A stretch of DNA of 20,762 nucleotides from positions 1 through 20,762 of the forward strand of contig CALIUX010000291.1 of NCBI GenBank assembly GCA_938048505.1. Direction: 5' to 3'. The notes under the pieces are model-generated. The model did not search any database, had not been told where the DNA came from, and saw nothing but the letters and a program-made list of their open reading frames with translations. This document shows positions 12,037 through 20,762 of this stretch, one piece after another. The position numbers and the translations under genes are program-made. How positions within the stretch are numbered: position 1 is the stretch's first letter; every line of letters begins with the position of its first letter. This stretch comes from an uncultured Pseudomonadales bacterium. GTDB taxonomy: Bacteria > Pseudomonadota > Gammaproteobacteria > Pseudomonadales > Cellvibrionaceae.

Positions 12037-13266
12037 TCATTCATCATGCGAACCTTTTGTATTGCGATTGAATTCGCTGAAGACTGTAGCCAGTAGTGAC
12101 ACCGCAGGCTTTTCATTACCTTTAGCATCCAGTAAATAAGGCTCGTTAGGTTGAGGAAATAAAAAAGACAACTCATCCATCCAGCTGATGCTGTCTGCAA
12201 AACCCCAAAAGGTAACGCCTTTACATTTTTCGACCAGCAAGCACTGATTTACGACGTCGCTGTAATACTCGCCCTGAGCTGTGTAGGGATCAGGGGCATC
12301 TTTAAATAAGCGAAGTCTGGCTTCTAGCTATGTAATTTCGATACTTAAGCCTAGGCGTGACAAGCGCTCCATATATGTTTTTAGTGTTGTTGGCGGAGCC
12401 AGCTCGTAGAGATTGTGCGCCTGTAGCCCCACACCATCCAATGGAACGCCCTGCCCTATGAGTTTCGCTATTACATGATAGAACGCCTCCGCCCGTTGAT
12501 TATTGTAATTGCGCAGTTGCTCGTTAAGATAAAGCTTAACGTCAGGGTCTGTCCTTCTAGCCGTTTCCAGTGCGATTCGAATATAGTCTTCACCAATATG
12601 ACGATAAAAGACATTTTCCTCGAACTCGCCATTCGAAAATAACCCCAGCACCTCATTGACGACATCCCACTCATGGATGCGCCCTTTATAGTGGGTTAAT
12701 ACTGTTTCAATGTGAGTGGTCATTAAGTTTAATAACGCACCCCGTCGCTCTTCTTGCGCGTACTTTTCAAGCCAAGCATCTAGGTCGGGCGATTTAAACA
12801 TGTCAGACGCCTTGCCAAATACCAGAGCGTGACCACGCACCCTCAGGCCTTTAGCAAGCGCAGCATCGACTATCTCGTCAGCCGCGCTAAAGTCATACTG
12901 TAATTTATCAAGGTCAATCAGCACTCCACCAAGTTTTAGGTCGTTTTCGGGCGTGATAGAGGTAAAGAGGTTCACGTACTTTGTATTACTCAGCTGGTTC
13001 ATACTTCTGACGGCTGCACCTAAATAAATTGGGGATTGCCTCACATGCATAGCCAATGCAGGCTCTGAATTCACCACCTCAGACTGTTTTAGATAATGGC
13101 GCTCAAACGTTAGAGGGTAGTAAGCTTTGAGTAGAACCCCGACTATACAGAGCAAAAAAACCATCGCAGAGCGGCCGGCAATTGTTCGCGTTTTTGTAAA
13201 GAATAAGCAAGGAAGCGAGATCAAGAATAAGCCAAAAAAAATGATAAGCGCTATGATGTAAAGCAT
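12037..13266 (-). pseudogene. GH10 endo-1,4-beta-xylanase interrupted by an in-frame amber codon at the catalytic nucleophile
   Basis: The first 312 codons (13266 to 12331) give two N-terminal hydrophobic segments (about 2-24 and 33-50), then a GH10 barrel. It carries SITPENDLK (103-111), RGHALVF (144-150), the acid/base motif WDVVNE with Glu205, and GVGLQAHN (278-285). The frame then meets TAG at 12328-12330, codon 313. The same frame continues without another stop for 96 codons to TAA at 12037. These encode LEARLRLF, GVTFWGFADSISWMDE and PYLLDAKGNEKPA, the normal end of a GH10 domain. The family sequence at the break is I-T-E-L, so the amber replaces the nucleophile glutamate; GAG to TAG is one substitution. 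As written, the product lacks the nucleophile and the last barrel elements and should be inactive. ATG 13266 has GAGG ten bases upstream. It probably ends the nitroreductase-marR transcript (83-bp gap). Confidence 0.85.
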
Positions 13267-13349: not shown

Positions 13350-13793
13350 TTAAGAGCGGTTGTTATCCAATAGGTCTCTAACTTTATTGATACCAGGCAA
13401 AAGCTTGGCAAAAAAATCTGGCCCTAGCTGCTCAACAAGTTCGGCGAACACGCCTGGCATGATCTGCATTGCCTCCATAAGCGACTTTGAGCCTGCGGTT
13501 GAAATCGTCACAAGCTTACCTCGGCCATCGTTAGGGTCTGCTGAAATTTTTATTAATCCCATTTTTTCCAACTTTGAAAGCGTATTGGTCATACTCGGTC
13601 TAGCAACCCGAAAAACCTCCGCCAACTCAGCCGGGCTATTGGCTTTCTGCGAATGTTGTAAGTGATTCAATACACTAAAGTGAGAGAGCAGCATGTCTCC
13701 GGGCAAGGCTTGATCCAACCTTGCCTGCGACAAGCTTTGAATAATATTGACACTGCGAAAAAACTCAAAGATCGGATCTTGCTTATCAGACAT
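13350..13793 (-). CDS. MarR-family transcriptional regulator
   Basis: A 147-residue winged-helix repressor. Dimerisation helices lie at both ends. The DNA-binding core runs from about residue 40 to 110, with the recognition helix around EVFRVARPSMTNTLSKLEKMGLI and the wing DPNDGRGKLVTIS, whose D-R-G-K pattern is typical of MarR. These regulators commonly respond to phenolic or oxidising ligands and repress their own operon. The ATG at 13793 has AAGG eight bases upstream, and that ribosome-binding site lies in a 13-bp direct duplication. It follows the nitroreductase by 86 bp on the same strand. The two palindromes in the nitroreductase promoter are its likely operators. Confidence 0.9.
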   Translation of the reverse strand: MSDKQDPIFEFFRSVNIIQSLSQARLDQALPGDMLLSHFSVLNHLQHSQKANSPAELAEVFRVARPSMTNTLSKLEKMGLIKISADPNDGRGKLVTISTAGSKSLMEAMQIMPGVFAELVEQLGPDFFAKLLPGINKVRDLLDNNRS

Positions 13794-13879: not shown

Positions 13880-15016
13880 CTATTCAGTCAGCATGGATTC
13901 GACCGACCAGCGAGGGCTTGGGCCTGGATTGGCAGCGTATCCGACGCGCATCAGCATTTGGACGCGATGCTGCGGTGGCACACCCAACTCATCATGTACG
14001 CGTTTATAAAGACTCGCCATTTCTGGGAATTCCTGCAGTGTTTGGCTAAGCGGTTGCAGTGCTAACCCCTTCTGCGTCGCTTTAAGATGCAACCGCATGT
14101 ATTCCGCACCCGCTTTCAGTTGGCTTTTACGACTGTTATCGGCCGAGGTTTGCCAGACGATTGCTTGCGATGAATTGATAATACCTTTGAGCCTTGCAAG
14201 ATAGTCTGTCACTTGGCTATGCTCTGGGTCACTTAAGTTCTCGCGAGTGATTATTCCTCCCGCCATAAGCAGCTCTAGCATTGGGCCGCGAAGGTCGATG
14301 CCATCGGGGCTGGCCTCAATCTCACTTTTACCAAACCGCATTAAATCAGCACTTTCTTTCAGTGTACGTCGAATGCTCATTTCTACTTCCATGCCCTCAT
14401 AAAGATTGCTCTTCATTCTTTCGACACGCTCAGGCTCCACGCTGCCAAACGTGGATTCGATCGTCAGCAATTCGCTCAAGGCTGAAGGCGTCACCTTTTG
14501 CTCAGAATTAAACGCATCCTTGTTAGAGCGCCTAGCTAATATCTCTTTAAACAATGGATTCGGAGTAACCTCCGCCCTTACAAAGCGAATATCGGCAATA
14601 GGGCGATTATCTAAACGTTCACGCTCTCTAGGCTCCCCTAGTGGAAAAAAATCTGTTTGTAAATGGTAACCCATCTCTGCTGCAGTGATTTTCAGCAACT
14701 CTAAAAAACAACCCAAGCCAATTGTAATCTGCCGATCATAAGGATCCGTATGAGCAAGGCGCCGGCTTAAGTCACAGAAAAGCTGCATCCTATCATCACC
14801 AGTAAGCTCTACCCGCCATGGCTGACGATTATGTGGGCTTGGCGCCAAAATGGCATACGATAAACAATCTAAGCGAATGTCTCCGAAACTCTGCCCCGCA
14901 TCTTGCCACGGCGCTAAAGCCTTACGAGGCGTGCGCGTGCTGCCCCACAATACGCCACTGCTCGCCAAGATCGCAATCATCCCAGCACCTGTTTTAAGTA
15001 TCATTCTGCGTTTCAT
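13880..15016 (-). CDS. Acg-type nitroreductase-superfamily flavoprotein with twin-arginine signal
   Basis: A 378-residue protein of the nitroreductase superfamily, closest in character to the Acg family of duplicated, FMN-binding nitroreductase-like proteins. YAILAPSPHNRQPWRVEL (about 53-70) is the first FMN-binding motif. ARRSNKDAF and the later TSADNSRKSQLKAGAEYMRLHLKATQKGL correspond to the second half. The ATG at 15016 is chosen because GGAG lies seven bases upstream and it opens a Tat-like signal, MKRRMILKTGAGMIAILASSG. The longer frame from 15076 would run through the promoter palindromes. A Tat signal suggests a folded flavoprotein exported to the periplasm. The physiological substrate is unknown. 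It is the first gene of the nitroreductase-marR(-xylanase) cluster; the stop is TAG. Confidence 0.85.
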   Translation of the reverse strand: MKRRMILKTGAGMIAILASSGVLWGSTRTPRKALAPWQDAGQSFGDIRLDCLSYAILAPSPHNRQPWRVELTGDDRMQLFCDLSRRLAHTDPYDRQITIGLGCFLELLKITAAEMGYHLQTDFFPLGEPRERERLDNRPIADIRFVRAEVTPNPLFKEILARRSNKDAFNSEQKVTPSALSELLTIESTFGSVEPERVERMKSNLYEGMEVEMSIRRTLKESADLMRFGKSEIEASPDGIDLRGPMLELLMAGGIITRENLSDPEHSQVTDYLARLKGIINSSQAIVWQTSADNSRKSQLKAGAEYMRLHLKATQKGLALQPLSQTLQEFPEMASLYKRVHDELGVPPQHRVQMLMRVGYAANPGPSPRWSVESMLTE

Positions 15017-15030
15017 GTATAAACTCCACT

Positions 15031-15076
15031 TGGTTAGCCATCTAACCAATATAGTTATATGACTAACTAAATGCAA
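15031..15076 (-). promoter_or_regulatory. Promoter of the nitroreductase-marR cluster with two MarR-type palindromes
   Basis: On the minus strand TTGCAT (15071-15076) and TATATT (15048-15053) are separated by 17 bp. One palindrome, TAGTTA-N6-TAACTA (15052-15069), fills the spacer. A second, perfect one, TGGTTAG-CCAT-CTAACCA (15031-15048), follows the -10 box and would cover the transcription start. Their centres are 21 bp apart, two helical turns, so both face the same side. The TTAG-N4-CTAA core resembles the SlyA/MarR operator pattern. Repression by the adjacent MarR protein is inferred. Confidence 0.65.
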
Positions 15077-15367: not shown

Positions 15368-17740
15368 TCAATGCGCATTGGGTAACGCCTCTGTAGCAGC
15401 TTCTTTACCGCGACGTTTAACAGGCTTGGTTAACGGCCGATTAAAACGCTTGGGGTAAAGAGACTCATTAAAGTCTTTTGCCATATTCACCATGTCAGGA
15501 TATGGAATATCCGCCACATTCACAAAGCCGACATTATAAGACTCACCATCAAATGCTCGGCCGCTCAAAGGCGAATCAAGATATTGAAACCAGTGCGCAC
15601 CAACAAAATTATCGTGATCTGATACGCTATCCATATAAACACGATACTTACGTGCACGGTCTTTTTGATCAGTAGCATACAGCAAGCCAGGATGCAATAA
15701 GCCGCTATCGCTCGTGGCACCAAAGTGATATTCGCCAATAATGGCTGGCAGATCTACTTCTCTTAAGAATTCCCATTCAAATGGCTGCAAGCCTTCGTCG
15801 TAAACATTAAAGCTCAGTACATCGGTATATTTTGTAGAGGCTTGAATTGTTTCATCTGGCATACCCCATGTTGCCATACGCACACCCATATAGAGGTGGT
15901 TAGGCAAAACACGCTCAATGGCATTGTGCACCACTTCAAAATAACGGTTAGATAGCATAAGCAGCATCTGCGACAGATCAGCCGTCAGATTTTCATTGTA
16001 CTCTTTAAATTTCACGCCCTTTTTCATAGCATTAAAATCGGCAATATTGGTATTCCAGCTTTTATTTAATGCATCAACGGTTTTATACTTTTTAATCAAA
16101 TACTCACTGAATGCCGCTTTGGCAGGACTGTTTTCAGCATCCATGCCCATTGCCGCAACCGATAAAAAATAACGACGATCAACTGACCCCGTACGGTAGC
16201 CCCATGTTTTTTCATTATCAACAAACACTCCCACACACCACGGAGAGCCTTTAATTTCACGCGCTATTTGCTCAATCGTTAAATTTGCACGGCGCTCAAA
16301 TTCTGGATCATAAACATCAGGCATAGCGTGCCAGATTTCATTACCAGTTTTAATTTCCTTAAAGTCACCAATAATCCACCCATTGGCAAAATAAGGAACT
16401 TGCTCATTGGGATAAAAAGCCGGGTCGACCCAATTACCCATAGAAGTAAAGCCCCAGCTTTGCATACGTTTAAGCGTATTATTTTCCCAAGCAGTCAGAA
16501 AATCATCTGCCCCGTATTTACGCTCTAAATTAGCGCGATAAAAACTGAATGTTTCACCGTGTGGCAATGGACCATCATGAAAAGAACGGCGGTAACTATA
16601 ATGCTTACCTAATGCCTCATCGTGCGAAGGCAACCACTCAAAGAGATTTCTACGCGTCTCATTAGCCTGATAGCGAGTCGCCTGAACAGATTTGGGAACA
16701 TCCACTTTACCAATAGAGTCTTCAGGCGTCAGCTCTTCAGGGTCTCGGTAACGAATCGAATCATCTTTAAAGTCCATCCCTGTAGTTGTAAACATATTAG
16801 ACAGTCGGACATTGGCCACACCATTAGAAAAGAATAAATAGCCTTCAGGGTCAACCATCCACCACTTTCCATTCACTTTTTCTGTTCTAAAAAAGCCAGT
16901 TGCTTCACGCTTAGGGCCCGTTTTCCAACCACCAAAACGAGAGCGGTCTGCAAAAGGCTGGCTCACAGCCAACTCTGCAATTTCTTTATCAGAAACTTTT
17001 TTAAACTCTGTTAGAGAGTGTACTTTTGTTGGAAAATCGACTTTAGCATTTTGACCAAACTGATCGATCATTTTATGAACAAAGCTTTCATCATATTCGT
17101 GGTTTTGACGCAATCGAATATTGTCTACGCGCAAATGTTTTTTTGACATATTAGTACGCGTATTGAGCGAAATGCGAGTAACGCTCTCGTTTGACATAAA
17201 ATAATTGCCGTAAATAAGCACAAACATCAGATCATCCGTCTGCCAAGGCTTAGGATTTTCACGCATTCCTGTATCTATATTCCAAAACAAACCATCAACA
17301 GGCGCAAACAATGTATGTTTTTCGCCCTTAGGAATCACAATATGGCGATGCAAGTCGGAACCATTCGAACTAATGGATAAGAACAGTTGCACACTTTCAC
17401 TACCCGTATTTTCTACATCTAGCGCGACATGATATTCATCATAAACAGTCCAATCCTGAGGCGTTTCAAAGTCTATATGCACACCGCTATATCTTGCCGT
17501 ATCGAGAAACTCAATATCAAGAACATTGTCTCCATCAACAGCAACAACTTTATGGTTAGCATTCTCAGCTGTTAATTTAGGTGAGACTTGGTCAAAATTA
17601 GCCAGCACAGATAATGTTTTATACTCAGAATCAGTTGGAATCGCATAGTTATGAACCACGCTATCATTGTGATTTTTTGAAGAACAGCCAGAAAAAGACA
17701 GCGCACATGCAAGCGCACAAAAAAAAGGAAAGGGTCTCAT
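15368..17740 (-). CDS. GH50 beta-agarase lipoprotein
   Basis: Glycoside hydrolase of family 50, which cleaves agarose or its oligosaccharides, usually releasing neoagarobiose. The 790 residues begin with a lipoprotein signal ending FSGC (Cys19, Ser at +2, suggesting the outer membrane). An N-terminal beta-sandwich, carbohydrate-binding-like region spans about 40-210. The (beta/alpha)8 catalytic domain follows from about 225. FVDNEKTWG places the acid/base at Glu510 and IGEYHFGA places the nucleophile at Glu670. Their 160-residue spacing agrees with that known for Saccharophagus Aga50D. The C-terminal tail is basic (KPVKRRGKE). The ATG at 17740 has GGAG nine bases upstream. The gene has its own promoter region with repeats and its own terminator. 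It looks fully functional. Confidence 0.93.
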   Translation of the reverse strand: MRPFPFFCALACALSFSGCSSKNHNDSVVHNYAIPTDSEYKTLSVLANFDQVSPKLTAENANHKVVAVDGDNVLDIEFLDTARYSGVHIDFETPQDWTVYDEYHVALDVENTGSESVQLFLSISSNGSDLHRHIVIPKGEKHTLFAPVDGLFWNIDTGMRENPKPWQTDDLMFVLIYGNYFMSNESVTRISLNTRTNMSKKHLRVDNIRLRQNHEYDESFVHKMIDQFGQNAKVDFPTKVHSLTEFKKVSDKEIAELAVSQPFADRSRFGGWKTGPKREATGFFRTEKVNGKWWMVDPEGYLFFSNGVANVRLSNMFTTTGMDFKDDSIRYRDPEELTPEDSIGKVDVPKSVQATRYQANETRRNLFEWLPSHDEALGKHYSYRRSFHDGPLPHGETFSFYRANLERKYGADDFLTAWENNTLKRMQSWGFTSMGNWVDPAFYPNEQVPYFANGWIIGDFKEIKTGNEIWHAMPDVYDPEFERRANLTIEQIAREIKGSPWCVGVFVDNEKTWGYRTGSVDRRYFLSVAAMGMDAENSPAKAAFSEYLIKKYKTVDALNKSWNTNIADFNAMKKGVKFKEYNENLTADLSQMLLMLSNRYFEVVHNAIERVLPNHLYMGVRMATWGMPDETIQASTKYTDVLSFNVYDEGLQPFEWEFLREVDLPAIIGEYHFGATSDSGLLHPGLLYATDQKDRARKYRVYMDSVSDHDNFVGAHWFQYLDSPLSGRAFDGESYNVGFVNVADIPYPDMVNMAKDFNESLYPKRFNRPLTKPVKRRGKEAATEALPNAH

Positions 17741-19210: not shown

Positions 19211-20762
19211 ATGTACAGATTTACCCTCCCTTTAAAATGCGCAGCACTTTTATCAGCAAGTTTACTGACAGCATGTGGGGGAGCAACGGTTTCATCATCC
19301 AGCAACCCATCATCGCTAGAGGCAAGTAGTCTTTCTAGTTCAGAAAATGCAGAATCCAGTATTGCTCAAGACAGCAGTTCAGAAGTCAGCAGTTCCCTAA
19401 GTATTAGCTCAACAATCACATCTAGTGACGTCCCCATCAGTAGTGCTAATAGCGATAGTGCCAAGAGTAGTACTGATAGCAGTATCGGTATCATTTTAAG
19501 TAGCATCAGCCAAGGTTCAACAAATAGTTCAACAAGCAGTATTGTTATTATTGAGGCGTCTAGCCTAAGTTCGAAACCCTCAAGCGCTTCAAGCAATACA
19601 TCAAGCCAAGGCGCCTCGGTCAGCAGTGCATTAAGCATTAGCTCAAGCTCATTAAGCAGTAGCTCATTGAACAGCTTGGAAAGTAGCTCTGTCATGAGCT
19701 CATCTACCGTATCAACTAGTAGCGTACCTTCGAGTAGCAGTGAAGAGCAAAGCGACTCAAGCGCTTTTTCTAGCTCGAGCGATGAAGCTAATTCGAGTGC
19801 TGATGAAAGCTCAAGTAGCGCAGCAATAAGCTCAAGCAGCTTTACTACAAGCAGCACTAGCAGCAGCTCAGCAACGAATGCACAAGCAAGCTGCCAAGAA
19901 GCTGTGCAGATGGGTGCCGCACTTTACTTGACGAATTGCCAGTTTTGCCACGGTGATGTTCCAGAAGATGGCCGCACCGTTTGGCGGGGCAATCGAGCAG
20001 TAATGGATATTTTTGATGAAGGGCAAGATGGGTATTTAACCAATAACACACCAACGATCATTGACAGCCTGACACTACCTGACTTCATTCAGGCCTATAT
20101 GCCCTTCACAACAAGCAACCTACCCTACTCTGAAATTGACCCAATACTCGCCTACATTACTCATACACTCAATACTGGCCAAGATTGGTGCCCAGGTGAT
20201 GCGTGGCCACCCATACCGTCTTTGGATAATTCATCAGAACAAAGCAGCTCCACACCATTTGACTCTGAATCGAGCTCTAGCGCAGGACTGACCTCTAGTA
20301 GCAATGAGTCGACTAGCAGTGAAGGCTTTAATGGCAGCTTTTTTAGCAGTAGTTCTTTTGGAAACAGTTCGTTTGAAAGTAGCTCCTTTAATAATACTTC
20401 CTCTAGCAGTAGCACTTTTAATAACAGCTTTTCAGGTGGCTTTGGATCAAGTAGTAGTCAGGTAGTTGGTGGCATTGGTCCAGAAAGAAAAGTGGTTTTA
20501 GCTACTCCAGGCGAAACAACCGGTTCGATTAAAATTGAAGATGATAAAGCACTCGCGCTGATTGATGAGCAAACTGTAATCACTGTAGAGGCAACCGGTT
20601 TTGATTGGTCAGAAGGGCCAGCATGGTCAAAAGATGGTGGGTTTTTACTGTTTTCAGATGTTCCACAAAATGTCATGTATCGCTTTCACCCAACAGAAGG
20701 AATTAGCGTTTACTTGGAACCTTCCGGCTCGACAGGCTATTACCCTCCTGGTAGCACACAAG
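19211..20762 (+). CDS. Poly-serine lipoprotein with cytochrome c and SMP-30/gluconolactonase-like domains (3' end beyond window)
   Basis: An open frame of 517 codons that runs off the right edge without a stop. It starts at ATG 19211 with AAGG eight bases upstream. The lipoprotein signal ends LLTAC (Cys22, Gly at +2), suggesting the outer membrane. Residues about 29-222 form a linker of roughly half serine. A c-type cytochrome domain follows (about 225-335) with haem motif CQFCH at 243-247, likely axial Met297 in AYMPF, and an extra Cys pair candidate (Cys228, Cys327). A second linker (about 338-417) is rich in Ser, Phe, Asn and Gly. From about 418 a propeller domain begins; GFDWSEGPAW (463-472) is the SMP-30/gluconolactonase metal-site strand with Glu468. 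Such lipoproteins with poly-Ser spacers are known in plant- and algal-polysaccharide degraders. Coupling lactone hydrolysis to electron transfer at the cell surface is an inference. Confidence 0.85.
   Translation, partial: MYRFTLPLKCAALLSASLLTACGGATVSSSSNPSSLEASSLSSSENAESSIAQDSSSEVSSSLSISSTITSSDVPISSANSDSAKSSTDSSIGIILSSISQGSTNSSTSSIVIIEASSLSSKPSSASSNTSSQGASVSSALSISSSSLSSSSLNSLESSSVMSSSTVSTSSVPSSSSEEQSDSSAFSSSSDEANSSADESSSSAAISSSSFTTSSTSSSSATNAQASCQEAVQMGAALYLTNCQFCHGDVPEDGRTVWRGNRAVMDIFDEGQDGYLTNNTPTIIDSLTLPDFIQAYMPFTTSNLPYSEIDPILAYITHTLNTGQDWCPGDAWPPIPSLDNSSEQSSSTPFDSESSSSAGLTSSSNESTSSEGFNGSFFSSSSFGNSSFESSSFNNTSSSSSTFNNSFSGGFGSSSSQVVGGIGPERKVVLATPGETTGSIKIEDDKALALIDEQTVITVEATGFDWSEGPAWSKDGGFLLFSDVPQNVMYRFHPTEGISVYLEPSGSTGYYPPGSTQ

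Follow-up and report, generated by a model that had tools for sequence, protein, structure and literature searches.

The window analysed here, 20,762 nucleotides in length, is an entire contig of the genome G000 (2,421,950 bases in 323 contigs, 72.5% complete) of an uncultured Pseudomonadales bacterium in the family Cellvibrionaceae. Its minus strand carries a GH10 xylanase gene interrupted by an in-frame TAG and, beside it, a gene for a MarR-type regulator:

12331..13266, minus strand: GH10 frame before the stop, 312 codons, with a hydrophobic N-terminus (by eye), barrel strands and the motif WDVVNE
12328..12330, minus strand: premature TAG, codon 313, at the column of the GH10 nucleophile Glu in alignments to structure chains and orthologues
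12037..12327, minus strand: continuation of the frame, 96 codons and TGA, matching the end of the GH10 barrel (Pfam positions 250-308 of 311)
13350..13793, minus strand: MarR-family regulator, directly upstream of the GH10 gene; the pair recurs at three of the six orthologous loci

Reading-frame analysis with translation table 11 placed the start of the GH10 frame at the ATG at 13266; 312 codons are followed by the TAG and then by 96 sense codons in the same frame, up to the TGA at 12037-12039. Residues 1-312 match the Pfam profile Glyco_hydro_10 (PF00331; 1.5e-50, profile positions 6-234), and the part after the TAG aligns with the last portion of this profile (6.2e-12), the two matches being consecutive along the profile on either side of the TAG. 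Taken together, the two parts match the GH10 profile across the barrel, and this domain is shared with endo-beta-1,4-xylanases such as 3wuf_A and 1nq6_A. The acid/base Glu motif WDVVNE and an identifiable nucleophile column are likewise common to GH10 xylanases and the window gene. These enzymes have a nucleophile Glu in a T-E-L/I motif, whereas the window has TAG at that column, and a single continuous translated barrel is replaced by 312 codons and a stop (table 11), so that no active enzyme would be expected. Judged from its sequence, the locus is an interrupted GH10 gene rather than a functional GH10 enzyme. An earlier note had described an isolated TAG in an otherwise intact minus-strand GH10 frame, and this description holds; the GH10 motifs it had quoted were found in the frame. 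The N-terminus is hydrophobic, as judged by eye only, and the product is probably membrane-anchored.

For alignment to solved GH10 chains, the stop codon was written as X. The search matched 140 sequences, and the nearest GH10 xylanases of known structure align from about residue 80 to 393 (best E 5.7e-47). In all three alignments printed out of the 140 matches (1nq6_A, 3wuf_A and 3wub_A, the last two being near-identical chains), X coincides with the Glu of the T-E-L motif, the catalytic nucleophile of GH10 enzymes. In the 1nq6_A alignment, the X column lies 108 residues downstream of the WDVVNE Glu by hand count, the same spacing as that of the pair 128/236 of Streptomyces lividans XlnA. The three alignments thus bear out the earlier placement of the TAG at the nucleophile, with the column corresponding to this Glu and not lying elsewhere.

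Relatives of the gene gave the same picture. A comparison of orthologous loci, which the earlier note had proposed as a check, showed a Glu codon at the TAG column in six of six orthologues, each with an uninterrupted frame. A wider set of GH10 loci was obtained by scanning named genomes with the six uninterrupted orthologues in aligned form; among the best 80 of the 499 loci found, 79 have Glu at this column and the remaining one (L167) has an alignment gap. Loci from genome searches have Glu there in 33 of 33 cases, and the acid/base column of the WDVVNE-type motif is Glu in 80/80 and 33/33 loci of the two sets, which overlap in that some of the same genes come from both collections.

Matches to the gene at E <= 1e-50 were present in seven of the 144 family genomes, G000 included. 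Their identity to the window GH10 is 55% in G003, which belongs to the same genus, 56% in G178, 48% in G030, 49% in G175, 47% in G177 and 43% in G104. G178, G030 and G177 appear to be Teredinibacter waterburyi Bs02 (L089/L032), the Marinagarivorans sp. PL25a_bin.100 MAG (L090/L004) and Alteromonadaceae bacterium Bs31 (L091/L034), respectively. All six intact orthologues (43-56% identity) have a hydrophobic N-terminus by eye, as in the window; they differ from it in their Glu codon at the site and their uninterrupted frame. Within the genus, the orthologue occurs in two of four genomes (G000 and G003); G001 gave no match at E <= 0.001, and G002 gave no orthologue and only a weak match (31%, 2.8e-11). 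The best DNA match within the genus is ~64% identical over the GH10 gene. The GH10 gene is accessory in the family, and since it is found in only 7/144 genomes and 2/4 of the genus, its loss is tolerated. A second, intact GH10 copy was not found in G000, where the gene is the single match in the 72.5%-complete assembly. A MarR-family gene adjoins the GH10 gene in the window, in G003, in T. waterburyi and in the Marinagarivorans MAG; none was found at E <= 1e-8 in G175, G104 and Bs31, where stretches of 16-17 kb were searched.

Several observations were made on GH10 genes other than that of the window. The TGA inside the G003 GH10 match was considered as an interruption and rejected, as it is the terminal stop of that gene. 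G003 has six GH10 matches versus one in G000, which may have fewer GH10 genes or may be missing sequence (72.5% complete). The genes L092-L097 come from Flexithrix and from MAGs of Opitutales, Gammaproteobacteria and Poribacteria, and their matches to the G003 orthologue start at residues 2-10 of 399; because these matches begin almost at the first residues, the GH10 form with a hydrophobic N-terminus may represent a wider GH10 subgroup. The GH10 gene L107 shares 35% identity with the G003 orthologue; its contig is titled 'MAG: Klebsiella pneumoniae', and this title, the only information used, is possibly misassigned.

The other genes of the window include three of separate interest. The minus-strand gene at 15368..17740 encodes a lipoprotein-like protein of 790 aa. 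It has an agarase CBM-like domain (Pfam PF17992, 2.2e-34) but no NCBIfam match, and it resembles a GH50-type agarase; this likeness suggests agar degradation. The gene at 13880..15076, also on the minus strand, encodes an Acg-family FMN-binding oxidoreductase (NF047509, over the cut-off) and ends in TAG. On the plus strand, 19211..20761 encodes a Ser-rich, lipoprotein-like protein that runs off the contig end; by eye, it has a CxxCH motif like that of cytochromes that bind haem, and Pfam and NCBIfam gave no match.

The state of the GH10 gene was assessed against its orthologues. The six orthologues share 86 invariant columns, at two of which the window differs: the TAG and one change of L to V. 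In a leave-one-out comparison, the window shows one departure besides the TAG, and the other six members show 3 to 14 each. Identity to G003 is 149/258 upstream of the stop, with the count beginning at the FERHY motif, and 55/86 downstream of it. The earlier statement that nothing else is broken is therefore well founded. In the maximum-likelihood tree, G003 and G178 group together with the window apart (support 81), and the branches are 0.357 for the window, 0.295 for G003 and 0.367 for G178. When only the portion downstream of the stop is used, which is short and has ragged C-termini, the branches are 0.56 for the window, 0.23 for G003 and 0.54 for G178. These comparisons give no clear sign of acceleration or drift, as would be expected if little had happened since the stop arose, or if the stop is not real. 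An older pseudogene was rejected, since other decay is absent and the branch is not long.

Concerning the exact position of the TAG, a single substitution could turn any of 123 other codons of the GH10 frame into a stop, via 163 substitutions in all. A random nonsense change would strike this codon with a chance of ~1/124 and either catalytic Glu with a chance of ~1/62, figures that are counted by codon, unweighted and post hoc. The earlier note had presented the site as the only residue whose loss by itself inactivates the enzyme; this is overstated, because the acid/base Glu of WDVVNE is as essential as the nucleophile. The weight it gave to the exact position is also unsupported: activity should be lost equally with a stop at nearly any point upstream of the last barrel strands, so the position would add no functional meaning. 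Recent bacterial pseudogenes with a single nonsense change have a lone stop and no other decay, as in the window gene; the difference is that the window stop happens to sit on a catalytic residue.

Whether TAG is read as a stop in this organism bears on the alternatives in which the GH10 frame would be translated throughout. TAG ends three of the 14 other genes that terminate in the window: pyrD and the nitroreductase, from which TAG had already been taken to be a normal stop, and the glutaredoxin gene (grxD). By a crude count that includes the GH10 TAG, it also closes 35 of the 192 coding-like segments of the sampled G000 sequence. Release factor 1 is present (432 bits against a curated cut-off of 423; positions 1-274 of 361, cut by a contig end). 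A tRNA search found 25 genes, in none of which ARAGORN read a CTA anticodon; this set, from a 72.5%-complete genome, also lacks several indispensable tRNAs, among them those for Lys, His, Cys and Phe. A single in-frame TAG within an otherwise good gene would fit reassignment of TAG to a sense codon; this reading was rejected as close to negligible on the presence of release factor 1, which is not lost, and the use of TAG as a stop, with which the incomplete tRNA list agrees.

Programmed or leaky readthrough, yielding a small amount of full-length protein, is improbable. It would fit the 96 conserved codons after the stop, with the frame intact to the TGA, but this conservation is explained equally by recency or by error, and the stop is not kept among relatives, all six orthologues having a sense Glu codon. 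A suppressor anticodon was not among the 25 tRNAs of the incomplete set. Moreover, near-cognate readthrough of UAG mostly inserts Gln, Tyr or Lys and not Glu, so the protein would be full-length but inactive. Conserved readthrough thus finds no support in these comparisons. More speculative still, and very unlikely, is the idea of the amber codon as a regulated switch, giving mostly a truncated membrane-anchored stub and rarely a full-length GH10 barrel that bears Glu or binds xylan without cutting it.

The remaining alternative is an artefactual stop in a gene that is in truth intact, the consensus being wrong at one base because of library damage, low coverage or a collapsed mixed population. 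In an assembly of 323 contigs and 72.5% completeness, one erroneous base would look identical to a null allele; the gene is otherwise well conserved, as expected if nothing were broken, and the one-base change proposed earlier (G to T in GAG) is of the type mimicked by oxidative damage in sequencing libraries. Coding frames continuing past a lone stop were screened for in the window and 20 stretches of G000 (180,868 bases). The threshold was loose, with coding scores overlapping out-of-frame ones, and the screen detects stops only, not frameshifts. Its output was 192 coding-like segments, with 17 candidates, of which four lie in the window and 13 in the 20 other stretches. On sorting by eye, only the window GH10 reads as one interrupted protein, the others being ordinary gene ends, starts of the next gene or non-coding frames. 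No internal stop was found in the 15 other window genes, of which that at 19211 runs off the contig. An error-rich assembly was therefore not seen as regards stops, which speaks against an artefact. The absence of any other gene with a lone stop in the ~160 kb of this crude screen outside the window counts against a null allele in the same way; nonsense errors and nonsense pseudogenes are both infrequent in the sample, and both readings therefore remain compatible with the data. Of the four explanations first offered for the stop, readthrough is thus disfavoured, and a null mutation or strain-level polymorphism and a base-call error both agree with what was found. An artefact is a possibility that we take seriously and regard as clearly the less probable.

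The best explanation in our view, with a probability of about 0.6, is that this accessory GH10 gene, for a probably membrane-anchored xylanase and next to a MarR-type regulator gene, is a null allele created by a recent nonsense change. In its favour are the Glu at the TAG column in all six orthologues and in 79 of the 80 wider loci, themselves the best 80 of 499. Lone-nonsense pseudogenes are common in bacteria, and in bacterial genomes real nonsense alleles are, in general experience, commoner than consensus errors that create a stop in an assembled contig; for this reason, a real allele is favoured over an error by ~2:1. Under a null allele, translation would end before codon 313, and the 312-residue product would lack the nucleophile and the last barrel strands and helices. 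Such a product should be unable to act as a xylanase and would probably be degraded. The nonsense change would be too recent for further damage to have accumulated, and the stop allele may be fixed in the strain or be one allele of the population.

The feature is most likely ordinary, a recent loss of the enzyme or an error in sequencing, and not a new mechanism. Its importance reaches little beyond the genome itself and would be greater only if readthrough were true. If the stop is an error, it serves as a caution that automatic annotation will label the enzyme truncated or a pseudogene. If it is real, the locus would represent a freshly lost accessory polysaccharide-degrading gene, and an example of ongoing gene loss.
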